A program made the translations under genes and the position numbers. Positions 9,382 to 25,830 of a DNA stretch of 64,000 bases are shown here, piece after piece (the stretch's first letter is position 1; the number at the start of each line of letters is the position of its first letter). Below the pieces are notes generated by a model. The model was not told the origin of the DNA, ran no database searches, and saw nothing but the letters and a program-made list of their open reading frames with translations. Origin of the DNA: Tepidanaerobacteraceae bacterium (GTDB lineage: Bacteria > Bacillota > Thermosediminibacteria > Thermosediminibacterales > Tepidanaerobacteraceae); the NCBI GenBank assembly GCA_024655905.1, contig JANLFP010000006.1, forward strand, positions 62,310 through 126,309, written 5' to 3'.

Positions 9382-9726
9382 TTATTTTGAGCATCGCTTC
9401 ATTTGCTCTATTCCCCATCTTGCGAGTTCGTCGAGCGCCGGCATCAGTTTTTTTCCAGCATCGGTCAGGGAATACTCCACGCGCGGGGGTATTTCCATGT
9501 ATTGAACGCGCTTAACCAAACCGTTTGCCTCCAGCTCTTTCAAAGATTGCGTAAGCATCATGTTGGTTATGCCGGATATTTTTCTTTTTAGCTCGTTATA
9601 CCGCATTGTCCCATTTTGGCTGAGCACCCACAGTATAGGAATCTGCCATTTTCCACCAATAAGCTTTAATGCATATGTTACAGGACAAGAATTGATTTCC
9701 CCGGAAAATTGCTTTTTATCGTTCAT
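9382..9726 (-). CDS. HxlR-family transcriptional regulator
   Basis: A winged-helix regulator of about 114 residues with the HxlR (pfam01638) pattern: CPVTYALKLIGGKWQIPILWVL with the family's conserved N-terminal Cys and GGKW, then MRYNELKRKISGITNMMLTQSLKELEANGLVKR and YSLTDAGKKLMPAL. The start is the ATG at 9726, preceded by AAAGGAGAGCAAGCC; a longer frame to 9801 is open but lacks a binding site. It is divergent from the flavin-type gene at 9848, so regulation of that neighbour, perhaps through the conserved Cys as a redox or electrophile sensor, is a reasonable inference. Confidence 0.93.
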   Translation of the reverse strand: MNDKKQFSGEINSCPVTYALKLIGGKWQIPILWVLSQNGTMRYNELKRKISGITNMMLTQSLKELEANGLVKRVQYMEIPPRVEYSLTDAGKKLMPALDELARWGIEQMKRCSK

Positions 9727-9847
9727 GGCTTGCTCTCCTTTACTCATAAAATGCTGATTAAGAATGAATAAACTGTGTACTTGATATTTTATGTGTTTCA
9801 CTTATAATGATATCAGATATGAAAATATTAGTAAAGGAGACATGTTT

Positions 9848-10255
9848 ATGAATGAAGGCCTGAAGGAAGTCCTCAAGTTTTTAACCGACAACCCCACGTT
9901 TTACATCGCCACTATCGATGGCGACAAACCGCGGGTGCGGCCTTTCGGTTTTGTAATGGAGCATGAAGGGAAACTATATTTGTGTACAAACAATCAGAAA
10001 AATGTATACAAGCAATTGAAGTCAAATCCTCGCTTTGAGATTTGCACCGCTTCACCAGATGGAAAGTGGATGCGCCTTACGGGAAAAGCCGTGTTCAATT
10101 CCACTCATGCCGCAAAAGCAAAGGCTCTGGAGGTAATGCCTTCGCTCAAAAAAATGTATTCGGCGGATGACTCGATATTCGAGGTGTTTTATGTAGAAGA
10201 CGGTGAAGCTGTTTTTTGTTCTATGACGGGCGAATCCAGGACGGTTAAGCTTTAA
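9848..10255 (+). CDS. Pyridoxamine 5'-phosphate oxidase-fold flavoprotein
   Basis: A 135-residue protein with the split-barrel flavin-binding fold of the pyridoxamine 5'-phosphate oxidase superfamily (NimA-like/general stress 26-like group). Seen: ATIDGDKPRVRPFGFVMEHEGKLYLCTNNQKNVYKQLKSNP, the FMN-contacting segment, then FEICTASPDGKWMRLTGKAVF. Family members bind FMN, F420 or heme; members this short often reduce small molecules. The start at 9848 is set by AGGAG at 9835-9839. Another ATG two codons upstream (9842) is too close to the binding site. It is paired with the divergent HxlR gene. Confidence 0.88.
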   Translation: MNEGLKEVLKFLTDNPTFYIATIDGDKPRVRPFGFVMEHEGKLYLCTNNQKNVYKQLKSNPRFEICTASPDGKWMRLTGKAVFNSTHAAKAKALEVMPSLKKMYSADDSIFEVFYVEDGEAVFCSMTGESRTVKL

Positions 10256-10288
10256 GAGCCGGGAAGCTTCCCGGCTCTTAAAGCTTTT
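10247..10288 (+). terminator. 40-bp perfect palindrome, terminator of the flavoprotein gene
   Basis: Positions 10247-10286 form a perfect 40-bp palindrome centred on AAGCTT, with the GC-rich core GCCGGGAAGCTTCCCGGC. It includes the TAA stop codon of the flavoprotein gene and is followed by only a short T run. The absence of any loop bases is unusual. Confidence 0.7.
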
Positions 10289-10371
10289 GCAGAGATTTAT
10301 TTAACATGCAAATGAGATGAATTTTATATAATGGTTCTGTACTATATCACTTTTTAAGACTCGCTGAAGTA

Positions 10372-11523
10372 TCAATAATTCTCATACATATTTCTCAGAA
10401 TCTCTACTACCTCTTGCCTGGCCAATTCTCTTGGCACGAATGCATAGCACGGGTCTTTGAAAATCATGTCGGCAATGCCCAACAAATCTTCCTTTGATAT
10501 TCCCAGTTGCTTTAGCGATTTTATTTTTATGCTCTTGCTGAATTTTCTTATCGCTTCTGCAACGATTTCTCCTATCTCTTCACTGCTTTCGTTCCCGGCA
10601 AAGGATATTCCCATTGCTTCGCCGACAATCTTAACCTTAGAAGCATCTATTCCCGCAGCATACTTCATTACCTCCGGCAGGGCCAGTGCGCACGCCTCGC
10701 CGTGTGTTACGTGAAATTTTGCGCCTATGGAATGAGCAATGGCATGTCCCAGGTGTACCAGGGCATCGTTGAAGGCTATGCCGGCAAAGTTGCTGGCCAA
10801 TATCAGGTTTCCCCTCGCCTCAATGTTCGCACCGTCTTCAAATGCCACAGGCAGATATTTCATTATCTTTTTTATTGCATCGAAAGCCAGCAGCTCGGAT
10901 TTTGGATTTGGGATTTTAGCCGTAATGGCTTCCGCTGCATGTGCGAAGGTGTCCATGCCGGTATGGGCCGTATCTTCAGGCGGCAGGGTAACCGTAGCCT
11001 CGGGGTCCAATATGCCGAGTGCGGCCGCTCCTATTACCGAATTCTTGACGCCGTTTGCTGTATCCGTTATAACGGCAACTATCGTGCTTTCGCTGCCCGT
11101 CCCGGCTGTGGTCACCACCATCACTACCGGTACGCCGGGTTTGTAAACGGGATTTCCAAAGTACTGGTTTATGGGCGGCGGATTGTTGATAAGGATGTTT
11201 ATAGCCTTAGCGGCATCCATGACGCTGCCTCCGCCTATGGCCACTATTGCATCGACCTTCCCCGCTCTGGCTACCTCTCCTCCCCGGTTTACTATATAGT
11301 CAGGCGGGTCGGGAAGCACTTCGTTGAATTCAACTATCTCTATTCCTGCATCCAGCAGGCTTTTCCTGCACCTTTCATAAAATTCGATTTTTGATACATT
11401 TTCATCCGACACCACTAGCGCTTTTGAACATCCAAGTTTTTTAACTTCTTCTCCCAGCACCGCCGCACTTCCCCTGCCGTATATTATGGGGCAAAGCTGT
11501 GCATATCTTGAAATCATTTCCAT
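10372..11523 (-). CDS. Iron-containing alcohol dehydrogenase
   Basis: A group III Fe-dependent alcohol dehydrogenase of about 383 residues. Seen: the NAD-binding GGGSVMDAAKAI near residue 100, TTAGTGSESTIVAVIT, GMDTFAHAAEAI and GHAIAHSIGAKFHVTHGEACALALP, which carry the usual Asp and His metal ligands. The start is the ATG at 11523 with AGGAGAGGG before it; a frame open to 11541 is less well supported. It follows the dienoyl-CoA-reductase-like gene by 21 bp in the same operon. Substrates in this family are small alcohols, aldehydes and hydroxyacids, and none can be picked here. Confidence 0.94.
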   Translation of the reverse strand: MEMISRYAQLCPIIYGRGSAAVLGEEVKKLGCSKALVVSDENVSKIEFYERCRKSLLDAGIEIVEFNEVLPDPPDYIVNRGGEVARAGKVDAIVAIGGGSVMDAAKAINILINNPPPINQYFGNPVYKPGVPVVMVVTTAGTGSESTIVAVITDTANGVKNSVIGAAALGILDPEATVTLPPEDTAHTGMDTFAHAAEAITAKIPNPKSELLAFDAIKKIMKYLPVAFEDGANIEARGNLILASNFAGIAFNDALVHLGHAIAHSIGAKFHVTHGEACALALPEVMKYAAGIDASKVKIVGEAMGISFAGNESSEEIGEIVAEAIRKFSKSIKIKSLKQLGISKEDLLGIADMIFKDPCYAFVPRELARQEVVEILRNMYENY

Positions 11524-16999: not shown

Positions 17000-17389
17000 T
17001 TAATTATCTATTTTTTCTATAATTAATGTTTTGTCTTCCGTATTGTACTCTAATTTTACTTCATCGCCAACTTGAAAATTCTTAATTATTGCTGACAGTC
17101 TATCGATTCGTCCTAAAGCCTTTTTATGAGTATGAGCCTGGTATTTCAATCCATTGTAAACTACTATCAAATCTTGGTCTGATTCAAGGCGCCTTCCTAT
17201 TGGTGATTTGCTGCCAAGCGTAAGTATTCCATAACGTATCTCTGAATCTTGAAGGACTCTATGCATAGTTATAACTTTTGACTCATTAGGGCTATCAATT
17301 CGTGCTGCATTATTCTTAATAGTAAATGTGTTTGTTATGGTATTATAAACTATATCTAATTCAATAGAAACAGAAAAATTCTTTAGCAT
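17000..17389 (-). CDS. Hypothetical protein
   Basis: A 129-residue protein with a very good ribosome binding site (GGAGGTGAAAGA before the ATG at 17389). Composition and pattern suggest a small mostly beta protein: VYNTITNTFTIKNNAARI, then VGDEVKLEYNTEDKTLIIEKI at the end, which resembles the GDEV-type turn of small beta-barrels. No known family is recognised. It is the first of two genes next to a Tn7-like end at 17474, and could be cargo of a former element. Confidence 0.6.
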   Translation of the reverse strand: MLKNFSVSIELDIVYNTITNTFTIKNNAARIDSPNESKVITMHRVLQDSEIRYGILTLGSKSPIGRRLESDQDLIVVYNGLKYQAHTHKKALGRIDRLSAIIKNFQVGDEVKLEYNTEDKTLIIEKIDN

Positions 17390-17473
17390 TCTTTCACCTC
17401 CTGCGTTATTGATTGTTTTGACTGTTTTATTTCAATCAATAGAATATCAAATATTTATTTATAAGTCAATAGG

Positions 17474-17976
17474 TGTATATTTAAAATAACTCCACTCCAG
17501 CCCCCACACCATCAAACCCTTATCCCTTCTCACCTTAGGCCTATTCCCCTAATTCTTTCCATATAATAAAGTCGGTTCTAAAATTCAATATTTTTATTCC
17601 ATTTAATAACATTTCTTCCTTAATTCTTGTAGTAATTTTTAAAATAAAGTCGGTTCCGAATAGGGACAAGGTGAAAGGGAAAAGGTATAAGGTTGCATTT
17701 TCTCATGTTCTTTTTCTAATCTTTTTATCAATCCTGGTATCAATATTTAAATCAATATAGTAATCTCAATCCCTTTAAAATCAATACCTATAGCCTTATT
17801 TCTTACTCCTTAACCCTAACAACCTTAACCCTTGCACCTTAGCCCTTTCCCCTGTAAAAAAAGCAAACCCGCAGCAAAATAGGAGTTATCCTGCATCTGC
17901 TACGGGATTTTGGAATGGACTTTATTTTATAGAGCGAAGCTTATTATTACGGAGTGGAGTTTATTTGAATTATACA
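17474..17976. mobile_element. Gene-free Tn7-like miniature element (element A)
   Basis: Begins TGTATATTTAAAATAACTCC at 17474 and ends with the inverted counterpart of TGTATAATTCAAATAAACTC at 17976. The left end has three direct repeats of an (A)AATAAAGTC/CTC-type site at about 17483, 17566 and 17641, spaced about 80 bp. The right end has inverted copies at 17911-17929 and 17951-17966 with a decayed one between, in 20-bp register. This is the site layout of Tn7 ends (three spaced left sites, packed right sites). No gene lies inside. Its right end directly interrupts a tnsA reading frame. Flanks (ATAGG and CCGGA) do not form a 5-bp duplication, so one side has since been deleted. Confidence 0.75.
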
Positions 17977-18084
17977 CCGGACAGTAAACCAGGGCTTGTA
18001 GTCTTTTCCTTCTCCCTGCCCCCTGCCCTCCTGTATCCATTTATTTAATTTATTTTCATCCCTATCTGTTTTCCACTTAGCCAT
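17977..18084 (-). pseudogene. tnsA: tnsA transposase endonuclease, N-terminal remnant
   Basis: From the ATG at 18084 (ribosome binding site CGGGAGGCG) the frame reads MAKWKTDRDENKLNKWIQEG then RGQGEGKDYKPWFTVR and meets the end of element A. The EGRGQGxGKDYxPWxTV pattern is the N-terminal hallmark of TnsA, the Tn7 subunit that cuts the 5' ends of the transposon (about 270 residues when whole). Only some 36 codons remain, before the catalytic core. The frame then runs for a few codons into the transposon end and stops. No tnsB, tnsC or tniQ/tnsD is present in the window. Confidence 0.85.
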
Positions 18085-18231
18085 ACAAACGCCTCCCGAG
18101 TTAGAAATTAAGTACAAAGGATTATGGAACAAGGGGAATGATATGGTAATGTAATTCATCCACCACTTCCTTAAGTCCCTTATCCCTTGCCTCTAAAACC
18201 TTTTTTTAATAAAACTCTTATCCCTTTTCCG

Positions 18232-18589
18232 TTATTCGTCTGTTCCCTGAAAAACCACATTGTAGCAGCAATACAAAAACAGATAGTATAATTCTGCTTC
18301 TTTTAATCCACCAATGTTAAATAATCAACTTCATCTATAATTTGCACCTTCGAATAATGTTTTAAATCATTTATGTAACTTTTTCTATTTTCGCTATCAC
18401 AACACAAACCTCAGTCAAAACCCATTGGGGGATAAGAATCATATCATACTGGCTAAATATCTTTTCAGGGCTGATGCTCTTGCGTACCCACGTTAAAAAT
18501 TCTACAGAATTATTATCCAAGATGCATACCTTGAGAGACTTGCCCGTGGAAAGGTATTTTTTTAAGTCATTTATGCCTTCTCCTTTCAT
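18232..18589 (-). pseudogene. PIN-like toxin gene, degraded
   Basis: From 18589 the frame gives about 72 residues (LKVCILDNNSVEFLTWVRKSI, MILIPQWVLTEVC) and then stops. Two frame changes restore the rest: CDSENRKSYINDLKHYSK, VQIIDEVDYLTLV, then GLKEAELYYLFLYCCYN. The early Asp after a hydrophobic strand and the later LTEV Glu resemble the acidic residues of PIN-like nuclease toxins. It overlaps the stop of the upstream peptidase gene by 4 bp (ATGA), so the two were a coupled pair. At least two frameshifts mean it is dead. Confidence 0.55.
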
Positions 18590-19245
18590 TTGGCAAGCCC
18601 CTCCACTTCTTTTTTGATTGTATTCTTTAACGTAAGTAAAAATTGATAGTTGTCTTTATGATGAGAAACATCTTGATTTTCTTTCATAGCGTTTTGTATT
18701 TTTTTCTCTAATCCTCCCAAACTTACAATATAGGAGGGTTTTACTAACTCTGCATCCAATTCCAAATCTATAAATTTTTGCACTAAGTTCTCAGGTTTAT
18801 TATCAAAATGCTCAAGAATTTTTTCTTTTAAATCCAAATCATTATATTTTGTAACGGCTTCTTCAAACAGTTCTATCAGTACTGCCTTATATGGTGCCTT
18901 ATATACATCCATGCATTTTATGACTCTGTCAATAAAATCTTCATCATCTAATGAATAGTAGTAGTCGTACACATTGCCAAAAATCATTTTTGCAGCAAAA
19001 TAATCTGCTCTTCTTTCATTTAAATCCATATCAACGGCAATATTATGGGTCTCATCCATTAAATTGAGGTCATAGAACAAATGATATATTTCATGCCATG
19101 CAACAAAATATTGATAGACACGGGGCTGGGCTGTATTGATAACTGGTATTTTAATACTTCCCTTTGTAATAATAGCCCCGCCCCAATACTCATCATTACG
19201 GGATTTGTTGGAAGATGGAATTATGGCACAGCTCACCAAATACAC
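18586..19245 (-). CDS. ImmA/IrrE-type metallopeptidase-like protein, N-terminally truncated
   Basis: 219 residues from a GTG at 19245, with the zinc-peptidase motif HExxH (FVAWHEIYHLFYDLN) and a downstream NERRADYFAAKMIF segment that supplies the third ligand, as in ImmA/IrrE (COG2856) proteins that cleave or regulate partner repressors. An in-frame stop lies four codons before the GTG, and no XRE-type helix-turn-helix partner is found upstream, so the original N-terminus is probably lost. It is coupled to the PIN-like remnant, as in toxin-antitoxin or abortive-defence modules. Likely inactive as a system. Confidence 0.6.
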   Translation of the reverse strand: MYLVSCAIIPSSNKSRNDEYWGGAIITKGSIKIPVINTAQPRVYQYFVAWHEIYHLFYDLNLMDETHNIAVDMDLNERRADYFAAKMIFGNVYDYYYSLDDEDFIDRVIKCMDVYKAPYKAVLIELFEEAVTKYNDLDLKEKILEHFDNKPENLVQKFIDLELDAELVKPSYIVSLGGLEKKIQNAMKENQDVSHHKDNYQFLLTLKNTIKKEVEGLAK

Positions 19246-22941: not shown

Positions 22942-23277
22942 CTAAAAGAAAAGGGCTTTTCTCAACGCCTGGGCATATCCTGCACATTCACTTTCTCCCG
23001 GACCGATTACCTTCTTCTTATCTTCGATGATGTCTCTAGCAAGTATGTTTATAGATATGTCTTTCTTCCTATCTACAATCTTAAATATACTCCCGTCCTT
23101 ACGAATTGCTTCGTTAATCACACCATAATATCTTCCTGCATTTTTCTTTATTTCTATATCATATACAAATTGAGGAATGATGATTTCTTTAAACAAAAGT
23201 TCTAGAATATCCAATCTGTTAACCCTGGCTAAATTAATCAGGATATCAGCATCAGATATGGCTCCTGTATATCTCAT
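22942..23277 (-). pseudogene. PIN-domain toxin, C-terminally truncated
   Basis: About 111 residues from the ATG at 23277, one base after the TAA of the upstream gene. The start MRYTGAISDADILINLARVN has the first PIN Asp (SDADILI), and GPGESECAGYAQAL gives the central GExE/A motif of PIN ribonucleases. The protein then stops at ALRKALFF, before the strand with the last acidic residue (normally LLTDD-like), so the active site is incomplete. With the upstream gene it forms a toxin-antitoxin-like pair of the DUF3368 kind. Confidence 0.65.
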
Positions 23278-23278
23278 G

Positions 23279-23557
23279 TTAATAGTCCTCTTCCTGGGGA
23301 TACTCATATCCGAATTGTTCAGGAGCCAGTCCGATAAATTCAAGGCTGTTTTTCATATTCTTGTATGAGATATTCCCTCTTTCGTAGTTGGTTTTTATAA
23401 ACTCAATATATTCTTTTGGCACATATGTTTCTTTTGATGGAGTTATCAAGTCTATACTGTAGCCTTCTCTTATGGTTAAAGATTGGAGTTGTTCCGTACA
23501 TGACTTTTTTATTTTTAACACGAGTTTTTTTGGGTTATACAACAATTGTATACACAT
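23279..23557 (-). CDS. Putative antitoxin whose N-terminus is encoded by a transposon end
   Basis: 92 residues; no family recognised. Residues about 30-92 (SLTIREGYSIDLITPSKETY, YKNMKNSLEFIGLAPEQFGY) look like a native small protein upstream of a PIN gene, hence the antitoxin call. The first 25-27 codons coincide with the Tn7-like end at 23498-23541 and the ATG lies in the neighbouring element, so this start was probably created, or the original one lost, by transposition. Translation is uncertain: no Shine-Dalgarno is obvious before the ATG at 23557. Confidence 0.45.
   Translation of the reverse strand: MCIQLLYNPKKLVLKIKKSCTEQLQSLTIREGYSIDLITPSKETYVPKEYIEFIKTNYERGNISYKNMKNSLEFIGLAPEQFGYEYPQEEDY
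23498..23541 (-). mobile_element. Tn7-like right end (element C)
   Basis: Read on the minus strand this begins TGTATAACCCAAAAAAACTC and carries two 20-bp-spaced sites of type AAAAAA(G/C)TC(G/A)TGT. It is nearly identical to the right end of the neighbouring element B (23901-23975) and points leftwards into the antitoxin and PIN genes. Between it and element B lie exactly five bases, ACAAT. I take it as the glmS-proximal end of an older insertion whose distal end I cannot locate. Confidence 0.7.
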
Positions 23558-23975
23558 AAAAAACTCATGTCAAACCTCCACCCCTTTCAACCCCTTGTCC
23601 CATCTATCCTTAACCCTATTTTTCTATTTCTTTCCAGATAAAAAAGTCATGTCAAAAATCACCCCTATTTCCTTGCTCCTATCTCCTACTTTTTTCCTAT
23701 TTTTAGCCTCATTTTAGATAAAAAAGTCGTGTCAAGAATAGGGAAAAGTTAAAAGGGAAAAGTTTTAATCAATATCTTTCATCAATACACAATTCAAACC
23801 CAATAAAATCAATACTTTTACCCTTATACCTTAACCCTTAATCCTACTCACCCTAAAACAAAAATCATGGTTCGAATAAGGTTTTCCACCCTATTTTCAC
23901 CATGACTTTTAACATGACTTTTTTATTTTTAACACGACTTTTTTATTTGTGACACGAGTTTTTTTGAATTATACA
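23547..23975. mobile_element. Gene-free Tn7-like miniature element at attTn7 (element B)
   Basis: Starts TGTATACAC at 23547 and ends TTATACA at 23975. Distal end: three direct repeats AAAAAA(C/G)TC(A/G)TGTCAA at about 23558, 23641 and 23721, 80 bp apart. glmS-proximal end: four inverted copies starting near 23901, 23912, 23932 and 23952, the last three 20 bp apart. This is the Tn7 left/right layout. The right boundary is 25 bp from the glmS stop codon, the standard Tn7 insertion point. ACAAT precedes the left end; the right side reads TTATACACAATC, which fits the same ACAAT duplication with one A lost or shared. No gene lies inside. Confidence 0.8.
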
Positions 23976-24000: not shown

Positions 24001-25830
24001 TTACTCCACCGTGACGCTTTTGGCCAGATTCCTGGGTTTATCCACATCGCAGCCGCGGGCGACGGCGGCGTAATATGCCAGAAGCTGCATGGGTATCACC
24101 GTTAGGACCGGCGACAGGATGGGATGCGTTTTGGGGATGTAAATCACATCATCCACCGATTTTTTAATTTCCTCATTCCCATCGTTAGCTATGGCAATTA
24201 CATATCCTTCCCTGGCTTTGACCTCTTTAATGTTGCTCAGGGTTTTTTCAAAAAGATGTTCCTGGGTAACCGGAGCAATCACGGGAACGCCTTCCTCAAT
24301 CAGCGCCAGGGTGCCGTGTTTCAGTTCTCCTGCAGCATATGCCTCGGCATGGATATACGAAATCTCCTTGAGTTTCAGGGCGCCTTCCAGGGAAAGGGGG
24401 TAATCCAGCCCCCTGCCGATATAGAAGACGTCTTGATGCCCTGAAATCTTCTGGCCGATTGCTTTCAGCCTGTCTTCTGATTCAAGCAGGGTTTTTGCCT
24501 GGTCAGGAAGCTTTTTCATGGCTGCGATTATATCTTTAGCATCTTCATCCGGCATGGTTCCGAGAATGCGCGCGATATACAGCGCTATCATGTCCAGCGC
24601 TATGAGCTGGGTGCTGTATGCTTTGGTGGAAGCCACGGCTATTTCCGGCCCAGCCCAGGTGTAAATAATGTCGTCTGCCTCGCGGGAAACCGAGCTTCCC
24701 ACTACGTTTGTGACGGCAAGCACTCTTGCCCCCTGTTTTCTTGATTCCCTGAGCGCCGCCAGGGTATCCGCCGTTTCTCCCGACTGGCTTATTATGATGA
24801 CCAGCATATCCTTATCTATCATCGGGTTCCTATAACGAAATTCCGATGCTATATCCACTTCAACGGGAATCCGCGTCAATTTTTCAATGATGTATTTTCC
24901 CACCATTCCGGCATGGTAGGCGGTGCCGCATGCAACAATGAAAATCTTCTTTAGGTTTTGCAGGTAGTCCTTCCCCAGATGGACATCGTCGAGCCTAATC
25001 TCGCCTTTTTCCGGGAAGATTCTGCCTGCCATGGTATCTTTGAAGGCTCTTGGCTGCTCGTGAATTTCCTTCAGCATGAAATGGGGATAGCCGCCCCTTT
25101 CGGCCGCCACCGCATCCCATTTTACTTCGAAGACGGATTTTGCCACGGGAGTCCCTAAAAAGTCGTATACTTCAACGCTGTCTTTTGTAATCTTTACCAT
25201 TTCGCCGTCTTCCAAAATATATACTTTGCGGGTATGCTGAAGTATGGCCGGAATATCGGACGCGATGAAGTTCTCCCCTTCGCCGAGGCCTGCGATAAGC
25301 GGGCTGGATTTGCGGGCTGCCGCTATGGTGCCGGGCTCCCTCCTGGAGATGACTCCCAGGGCGAAAGAGCCTTCCAGCCTGCTTATGGTCTTCTTCAGAG
25401 CTTCCAAAAGGTCACCGTCATAAAAATGTTCAATCATATGGGGAATCACTTCTGTATCGGTTTCGGATTTGAAAACATGTCCTTTCGACTGCAGCCATTC
25501 CTTCAATTCCTGGTAATTTTCAATGATTCCGTTGTGAACCACCATAAAATCCCCGGTGCAATCAGTATGGGGATGGGCATTCACATCCGACGGCCTGCCG
25601 TGGGTCGCCCAACGGGTGTGCCCTATGCCCGCACAGCCTTCGGGATATGCTCCGCCAAGCTTTTCCTCCAGCACTTTTATCTTGCCTTCTGCTTTAATCA
25701 GATTGGTGTGCCTGCAGTTATGGATGGCTATGCCCGCCGAATCGTATCCTCTATATTCAAGCCTTTTAAGGCCGTCCAGCAAAATCGGAGCCGCCTGTCT
25801 GCCTCCTACGTAACCTACTATTCCGCACAT
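24001..25830 (-). CDS. glmS: Glutamine--fructose-6-phosphate aminotransferase (isomerizing)
   Basis: 609 residues; makes glucosamine 6-phosphate from fructose 6-phosphate and glutamine, the first step to UDP-GlcNAc. It starts MCGIVGYVGG, with Cys2 as the N-terminal glutaminase nucleophile, and has GHTRWATHG and the HNGIIENY loop. Two SIS domains follow (FIVACGTAYHAGMVGKYIIE with ISQSGETADT; IGRGLDYPLSLEGALKLKEISYIHAEAYAAGELKHG). The C-terminus DKPRNLAKSVTVE is the conserved tail whose codons serve as the TnsD target. It is preceded by a glmS ribozyme and the glmM gene. Confidence 0.98.
   Translation of the reverse strand: MCGIVGYVGGRQAAPILLDGLKRLEYRGYDSAGIAIHNCRHTNLIKAEGKIKVLEEKLGGAYPEGCAGIGHTRWATHGRPSDVNAHPHTDCTGDFMVVHNGIIENYQELKEWLQSKGHVFKSETDTEVIPHMIEHFYDGDLLEALKKTISRLEGSFALGVISRREPGTIAAARKSSPLIAGLGEGENFIASDIPAILQHTRKVYILEDGEMVKITKDSVEVYDFLGTPVAKSVFEVKWDAVAAERGGYPHFMLKEIHEQPRAFKDTMAGRIFPEKGEIRLDDVHLGKDYLQNLKKIFIVACGTAYHAGMVGKYIIEKLTRIPVEVDIASEFRYRNPMIDKDMLVIIISQSGETADTLAALRESRKQGARVLAVTNVVGSSVSREADDIIYTWAGPEIAVASTKAYSTQLIALDMIALYIARILGTMPDEDAKDIIAAMKKLPDQAKTLLESEDRLKAIGQKISGHQDVFYIGRGLDYPLSLEGALKLKEISYIHAEAYAAGELKHGTLALIEEGVPVIAPVTQEHLFEKTLSNIKEVKAREGYVIAIANDGNEEIKKSVDDVIYIPKTHPILSPVLTVIPMQLLAYYAAVARGCDVDKPRNLAKSVTVE

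Follow-up and report, generated by a model that had tools for sequence, protein, structure and literature searches.

Background

Tn7 and its glmS-targeting relatives (the TnsABCD elements) combine the TnsABC proteins with a target selector of the TnsD family, have multi-site ends bounded by TGT..ACA termini, and insert approximately 25 bp past glmS with a 5-bp duplication that flanks the whole element. Residues E63, D114 and K132 of Tn7 TnsA have catalytic roles, and active-site mutants of this protein, studied by May and Craig in 1996, reportedly give a product in which a donor backbone is enclosed by two copies of the mini-transposon (mini-Tn - donor backbone - mini-Tn). Adjacent deletions are a known by-product of replicative transposition and are made in a single step. 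In IS26-type translocatable units and pseudo-compound transposons, a circle carrying one end unit inserts to leave two direct copies of that unit, and solo LTRs derive from copies that are identical at insertion and of which one remains after recombination. In the laboratory, the TnsA active-site mutant D90A of a Vibrio CAST yields >95% cointegrates, again of the form mini-Tn - donor backbone - mini-Tn (PMC8188705). Elements of the Tn5053 type and V-K CAST, which have no TnsA, follow a replicative pathway, and many TnsA-less elements carry resolvase genes (PMC8649781, PMC11406308); across Tn7-like elements, one survey found the loss of tnsA to be associated with the acquisition of resolvases (PMC8649781).

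The locus described here, positions 17474-17976 of the window (the whole 64,000-nucleotide stretch of DNA that was analysed), belongs with a clade that resembles Tn7 in its proteins, ends, target and whole-element duplication, but whose TnsA lacks Asp114 and in which whole mini-elements (hereafter minis) are duplicated at both sides with the tns genes between them. Compared with the laboratory TnsA mutants, the change is natural and clade-wide, and the tns genes lie inside the backbone; compared with Tn5053-type elements and V-K CAST, the TnsA protein is kept minus its aspartate and TnsB is close to that of Tn7. The IS26-type units differ in that the unit here is geneless and its target is glmS or another fixed site, and solo LTRs offer an analogy only, there being no RNA step. 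A literature search, with subscription journals mostly outside its reach, found no report of a naturally aspartate-less TnsA or of minis as terminal repeats. On the comparisons set out below, we consider it probable (roughly 0.7) that 17474-17976 is a solo end cassette of a replicatively inserting Tn7-like clade, and that in the window an adjacent deletion took tnsD, tnsC, tnsB and the greater part of tnsA.

A geneless mini in a glmS island

The mini comprises a left end, a hairpin and a right end. Its left end (17474-17657, forward strand) begins with the terminus TGTATA at 17474 and holds three TnsB-type sites at approximately 17484, 17565 and 17643, spaced 81 and 78 bp apart; its right end (17912-17976, reverse strand) holds three TnsB-type sites in a 20-bp register, ending at 17926, 17945 and 17965, and the terminus TATACA ending at 17976. 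With both Tn7-type ends present, no transposase gene and no open reading frame of at least 90 aa inside it, the stretch has the constitution of a non-autonomous mini-Tn7 or MITE. An earlier reading, made from the sequence alone, had observed that its site letters (code B) differ from those of the element on the glmS side (code A), which is correct; shared by both are A-A/T-AAA-G/C-TC and, outermost, AACTC (not AAGTC).

Immediately beyond the right terminus, and severed by it, lie codons 1-36 of a tnsA (17977-18084, reverse strand, recognised by homology), which are 61% identical to the TnsA of a Shewanella plasmid and 91% identical over 35 aa to the TnsA of genome G108, where tnsABCD is intact and the island terminates at glmS. 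Matches to this tnsA start were found in 9 of 398 genomes of the phylum, the window's own among them. It is followed, on the same strand, by tnsA-upstream DNA (18085-18255) and by cargo (18256-19245) with an ORF at 18586-19245 that, judged by eye and from its homology to a G108 cargo gene, encodes an M78-type peptidase. Window positions 17981-18255 (85.6% identity) and 18256-19196 (91.5%) reproduce the tnsA start, upstream DNA and cargo of G108 with order and orientation kept, 992 bp of G108 being absent from the window at the junction 18255/18256. Relative to G108, the window is without tnsD, tnsC, tnsB and the rest of tnsA, and what is missing begins exactly at the right terminus of the mini.

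Towards glmS, the remnant of a cargo pair (PIN-like and M78-like) that stands beside tnsD in G108 occupies 22942-23498 (reverse strand) and is cut at a code-A right-end array. This array, with a TATACA terminus, forms a solo code-A right end (23495-23541, reverse strand) 5 bp from the next mini, a code-A mini at 23547-23975 that is homologous to the code-B mini at approximately 70-78% in two pieces. The code-A mini sits at attTn7, 25 bp past the stop of glmS (24001-25830, reverse strand, with the target at its 3' end), and its flanks (ACAAT / (A)CAATC) are within one base of a duplication. Pairs of PIN-like and M78-peptidase-like genes stand on both sides of tns, in the window at 22942-23557 and 18586-19245 and in locus L023 at 407-1796 and 9422-11115; by eye they are toxin-antitoxin-like, and one window copy is cut by the right-end array near 23498.

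The sequence-only reading had placed the code-B mini inside the tnsA of a further copy, away from any glmS and hence not directed to attTn7. The tnsA is not split, however: its 36 codons abut the right end only, no homology to tnsA, tnsB, tnsC or tnsD was found to the left of the mini, and a 5-bp target duplication of its own is absent (flanks ATAGG / CCGGA). Nor need another copy be invoked, since fragment and flank are arranged and oriented as they are in this element of G108, and tnsD, tnsC, tnsB and the remaining tnsA are missing precisely from the right terminus. The mini lies in a glmS island, approximately 6 kb from glmS with other Tn7 remains in between, and stacking at one site would give such a distance, which therefore says nothing against attTn7 targeting. 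Code-B ends are found 26 bp past glmS in Lutispora and Clostridium AS24 and in the glmS islands of G001 and G108, contradicting the claim that insertion was not attTn7-directed; among right ends of various codes, 10 of 11 lie 24-26 bp past the glmS stop and one lies 48 bp past it. In G001, from the same genus, a code-B left end, a code-A left part and sites of a third code follow one another within approximately 0.7 kb of glmS. The third-code sites in G001 (L008, 9276-9600) resemble AAAGTCTTTCC, as in G293 and T. wiegelii. The element in G012 (C6:17133-41827; L007, L140-L142) sits not at glmS but at the 3' end of a gene reading by eye as ribosomal protein S9, and its TnsD is shorter, at 425 aa.

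Much of the window's anatomy would also suit a non-autonomous, MITE-like mini that was mobilised in trans into the tnsA of another copy and later lost the left half of tnsA together with the target duplication. Minis are numerous and geneless, the termini are exact on both sides, the tnsA homology reaches the right terminus, and a mini that entered tnsA, the left part of which was then lost, would leave the same junction, so that the junction alone is not decisive. Nevertheless, the complete lack of tnsA, tnsB, tnsC and tnsD on the left tells against this account, as do the intact relatives described below, and we regard it as unlikely. A local autonomous partner was sought by screening the window genome for PF08722, PF09299 and PF06527 (TnsA, TnsB C-terminal and TniQ); this gave no match and the candidate was rejected, a result to be weighed lightly because control genomes were equally matchless.

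Minis as terminal direct repeats in intact relatives

A TnsB alignment, used to scan 84,980 species genomes, returned 14 loci. In the relatives, homologues of TnsA, TnsB, TnsC and TnsD/TniQ are encoded in one operon, as in Tn7-like elements. Loci were counted as intact where tns and both flanks lay on one contig (n=5), which set aside drafts with a contig end inside a mini, G442 (broken tnsC and tnsD) and G443 (broken tnsA only). Near-identical direct repeats straddle tns in all five, at 98.6-100% identity: 1440 bp at 99.7% in G108, 354 bp at 98.6% in G293, 1179 bp at 100% in G080 (tandem minis), 342 bp at 99.7% in T. wiegelii and 462 bp at 100% in G012. In four of the five, the edges of the repeat are the transposon termini, the arrangement that characterises a cointegrate; the window retains only one copy. 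G108 is the exception, with a repeat that runs 1 kb past the mini, a left terminus reading CGTATA and no whole-element 5-bp duplication; the extension and the altered terminus make it a poor fit to a clean cointegrate. Both chimeric G108 minis (L022 at 19914, L028 at 10500) have CGTATA for TGTATA and lie inside the 1440-bp duplication, which includes 1 kb of left flank.

Duplications of 5 bp flank whole elements exactly in three of four cases (ATAAC/ATAAC in G293, TCTCT/TCTCT in G012 and CCCAT/CCCAT in G080), that of T. wiegelii being one base off (ATTTC/(A)TTTC). Among 17 minis tabulated, one of which has no right flank, identical 5-bp flanks of the mini's own occur in 0 of the 16 with both flanks readable, and minis as ordinary insertions with their own duplications were rejected on this count. 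This result, and the finding that minis are parts of larger elements in 5/5 intact loci, are what chiefly weigh against independently mobilised, MITE-like minis.

In the relatives, it is the right end of a mini that is turned towards tnsD, and no separate left end was seen between the two; in all intact relatives but one the right copy is at glmS, approximately 25 bp beyond its stop codon. Inner flanks do not change (in codes A and B, CTAACTA precedes the left end and the right end is followed by TAGTTAG or TAGTAGG), and the outer flanks vary; CTAACTA also precedes the left end in G080 and T. wiegelii. Trimmed to their termini, minis are 99.7% identical within one element, compared with 83.5-84.1% between G293 and T. 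wiegelii, the tns DNA of which is 88.5% alike. Minis that are alike within elements and diverged between them are thus either made anew with each insertion or homogenised by gene conversion. The copies in the degraded G442 element are more diverged (88%).

Six elements that keep Asp114, in five records, served as controls (the G324 contig reaches 3 kb beyond tns on one of its sides). Four of the six are without a straddling repeat of at least 100 bp; pLEW6932 has one of 352 bp at 94%, which overlaps a gene and is without TGT..ACA edges, and in G146 the straddling repeat is 85% identical and recurs three times.

Loss of the catalytic aspartate from TnsA

Aligned to Tn7 TnsA, D114 is replaced by Ser or Thr in 11/11 distinct elements of the clade, none of which therefore has the full E63/D114/K132 set of a cut-and-paste TnsA: the three positions read E/S/K in nine and Q/S-or-T/K in two (G080 and G012, with Gln for E63). 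The aspartate is kept in 9/9 outgroup elements, and also in pLEW6932; serine at its position is found too in G442 and in the G443 pseudogene. These counts are of distinct elements with Tn7 excluded, drawn from an alignment of 26 rows from which L037 was dropped (active site uncovered), and in which L012/L023, L014/L025 and L021/L025 are duplicates and L120 is a near-copy of L023. In a TnsB tree of 22 rows, a branch supported at 97/94, and present in 98% of bootstrap trees, has the aspartate-less group on one side; L042 and L110, whose TnsA is unreadable, fall in no group. The TnsB catalytic residues D291, D379 and E414 are kept in the three members aligned. An AlphaFold model of a T. wiegelii TnsA was poor (pLDDT 51, pTM 0.36).

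It could be argued that these are ordinary large cut-and-paste elements that move by their outermost ends, with the internal ends as passengers, gene conversion keeping the minis alike, and the change in TnsA tolerated or compensated. Such elements would likewise be expected to show a whole-element 5-bp duplication, and TnsA is retained and conserved. We find this quite unlikely given that D114 is lost throughout the clade and E63 with it in two members, that minis are so much closer within an element than between elements (99.7% against 84%), and that repeat edges fall exactly at the termini in four of five intact loci.

A proposed replicative route to solo minis

In the reading that we prefer, that of a solo end cassette from a replicatively inserting clade, TnsA without its aspartate would be unable to cut the 5' strands. 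The donor would be a circle carrying a single mini, the ends of which TnsB, together with TnsC and TnsD, would join to attTn7; replication across that mini (340-500 bp) would then produce a cointegrate in which two minis enclose the donor with its tns genes and cargo. Host RecA, or the tyrosine or serine recombinase encoded by most of these elements, could recombine the two minis and release the circle again, with a solo mini staying behind. The anatomy, the duplications, the loss of the aspartate and the constant inner and variable outer flanks are read from sequence, and from them we infer the circle and the biochemistry. The code-B and code-A stretches of the window would both be such solo remains, the code-B mini most likely being the left mini of a G108-like element from which a deletion extended from the right terminus to tnsA codon 36. 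Gene-free mini-Tn7 copies at glmS would thereby be explained as scars, and the clade would provide a case of site-specific integration whose usual outcome may be the insertion of an entire circle.

Reality of the cassette and its hairpin

A consensus allowing one mismatch fits five of the six sites in the code-B mini; 2,000 dinucleotide shuffles gave 0.06 such sites on average and never more than 2. Homology to other genomes is the best evidence that 17474-17976 is real. In a search of 19 genomes, nine matched at E <= 0.001, and near-full-length homologues (>=493 of 503 query bases, 76-89% identity) were found in G108, G410, G411, G413, G414 and G416; G413 and G108 being near-copies, these represent five other distinct genomes, and their homologues have the same edges as the window's mini. 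Sites, ORF list, shuffles and homologues together bear out the layout given by the sequence-only reading, of three left sites approximately 80 bp apart, right sites in 20-bp register, TGTATA ends and no gene. The same reading had held that a structured RNA would overturn it; an Rfam scan of 17300-18200 returned no family above cut-off (best 18.5 bits vs 35.7), and this candidate was ruled out. That the stretch is a mere chance arrangement or a structured RNA is hardly conceivable: a strong hairpin does lie within the mini, but the site count was reached in none of the shuffles, Rfam gave no match above cut-off, and the same-edged homologues already refute it.

The hairpin (17861-17920, reverse strand, -22.1 kcal/mol per 60 nt) is followed by a T-rich stretch and is terminator-like; it faces transcription entering through the right end of the mini, and a similar one is present in minis of other codes. 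A hairpin was seen in 8/8 minis folded, covering five codes (A, B, C, D and E), and in seven of the eight the best one belongs to the strand that is read from the right end, where a T-run often accompanies it. Its presence fits a terminator that takes over from that of glmS, and the inverted repeat inside each mini fits a recombinase site or, equally well, a terminator.

Site codes follow TnsB clades

From two elements of equal architecture and unequal code, the sequence-only reading had proposed two transposase lineages, to be refuted if mixed repeat sets occurred within single elements. Code does track TnsB clade, with at least five codes distinguished: the end that faces tnsD is of code B in all four assessable elements of the G108 clade (G108, G442, Lutispora and Defluviitalea) and of code A in 2/2 of the Caloramator/Geosporobacter clade, a third code is common to G293 and T. 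wiegelii, and a fourth and a fifth occur in G080 and G012, respectively. AS24, Thermotalea and N3C, which also belong to the G108 clade, do not enter this count, as their tns contigs showed no end. Mixed sets were looked for and do exist, in 2 of the 17 minis, namely in G108 (left A, right B) and in Geosporobacter C104 (outermost left site A, the rest B), so the refuting case named by the reading itself occurs, while its pairing of code with lineage is supported. In outline, then, the code goes with TnsB, and codes do recombine with one another. In the mini table, the code-A site letters count overlapping matches of one site twice. The pairs of TnsB and site code constitute a resource for studies of end recognition and target immunity. 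The inner flank contains a second array resembling a right end, approximately 66 bp beyond the outermost left site and mostly in the code of the adjacent mini (L008 8837-8917, L022 17319-17339, L105 16278-16318, L107 9850-9870, L109 529-591 and L112 3594-3634).

Plasmid-like genes in element interiors

Recombinase genes are present in four of the five interiors, encoding tyrosine recombinases in G293, T. wiegelii and G012 and a serine resolvase in G080; in G108, none was found among the best 25 of 48 families, and tblastn with the enzymes of the other elements gave no match. An intact ParM-type actin is encoded in G012, in G080 and in a Geosporobacter island, with pieces of one remaining in G108, G001 and Lutispora; the control stretches yielded none. 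The G080 actin has PDB matches to Ta0583 and ALP12, and DnaG-type primases are encoded in G293 and T. wiegelii. These plasmid-like genes suggest a circular stage of the element. No free circle came to light: searches of plasmid records found no TnsB above 60% identity, the 417 and 453 records retrieved having weaker matches only, and phage records had no match to TnsB. A viral origin was also considered and rejected: with the G108 TnsB as query, viral contigs gave a single match, weak and partial, and phage records gave none.

A wider picture, which we offer tentatively and at somewhat less than even odds, is of Tn7 turned inside out: a plasmid-like circle, with its ParM-type actin, DnaG-type primase, recombinase and defence cargo, would use TnsBCD and a nuclease-dead TnsA as its integrase, and the sole transposon proper would be the geneless 340-500 bp mini, duplicated on integration at glmS and left behind on excision. 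Divergence of TnsB and code might then let later elements stack past target immunity. Four of the five interiors also encode a four-helix-bundle protein of the 23S rRNA intervening-sequence / TIGR02436 family (L128:11155-11559, L139:5255-5659, L028:6737-7174 and L131:5171-5611).
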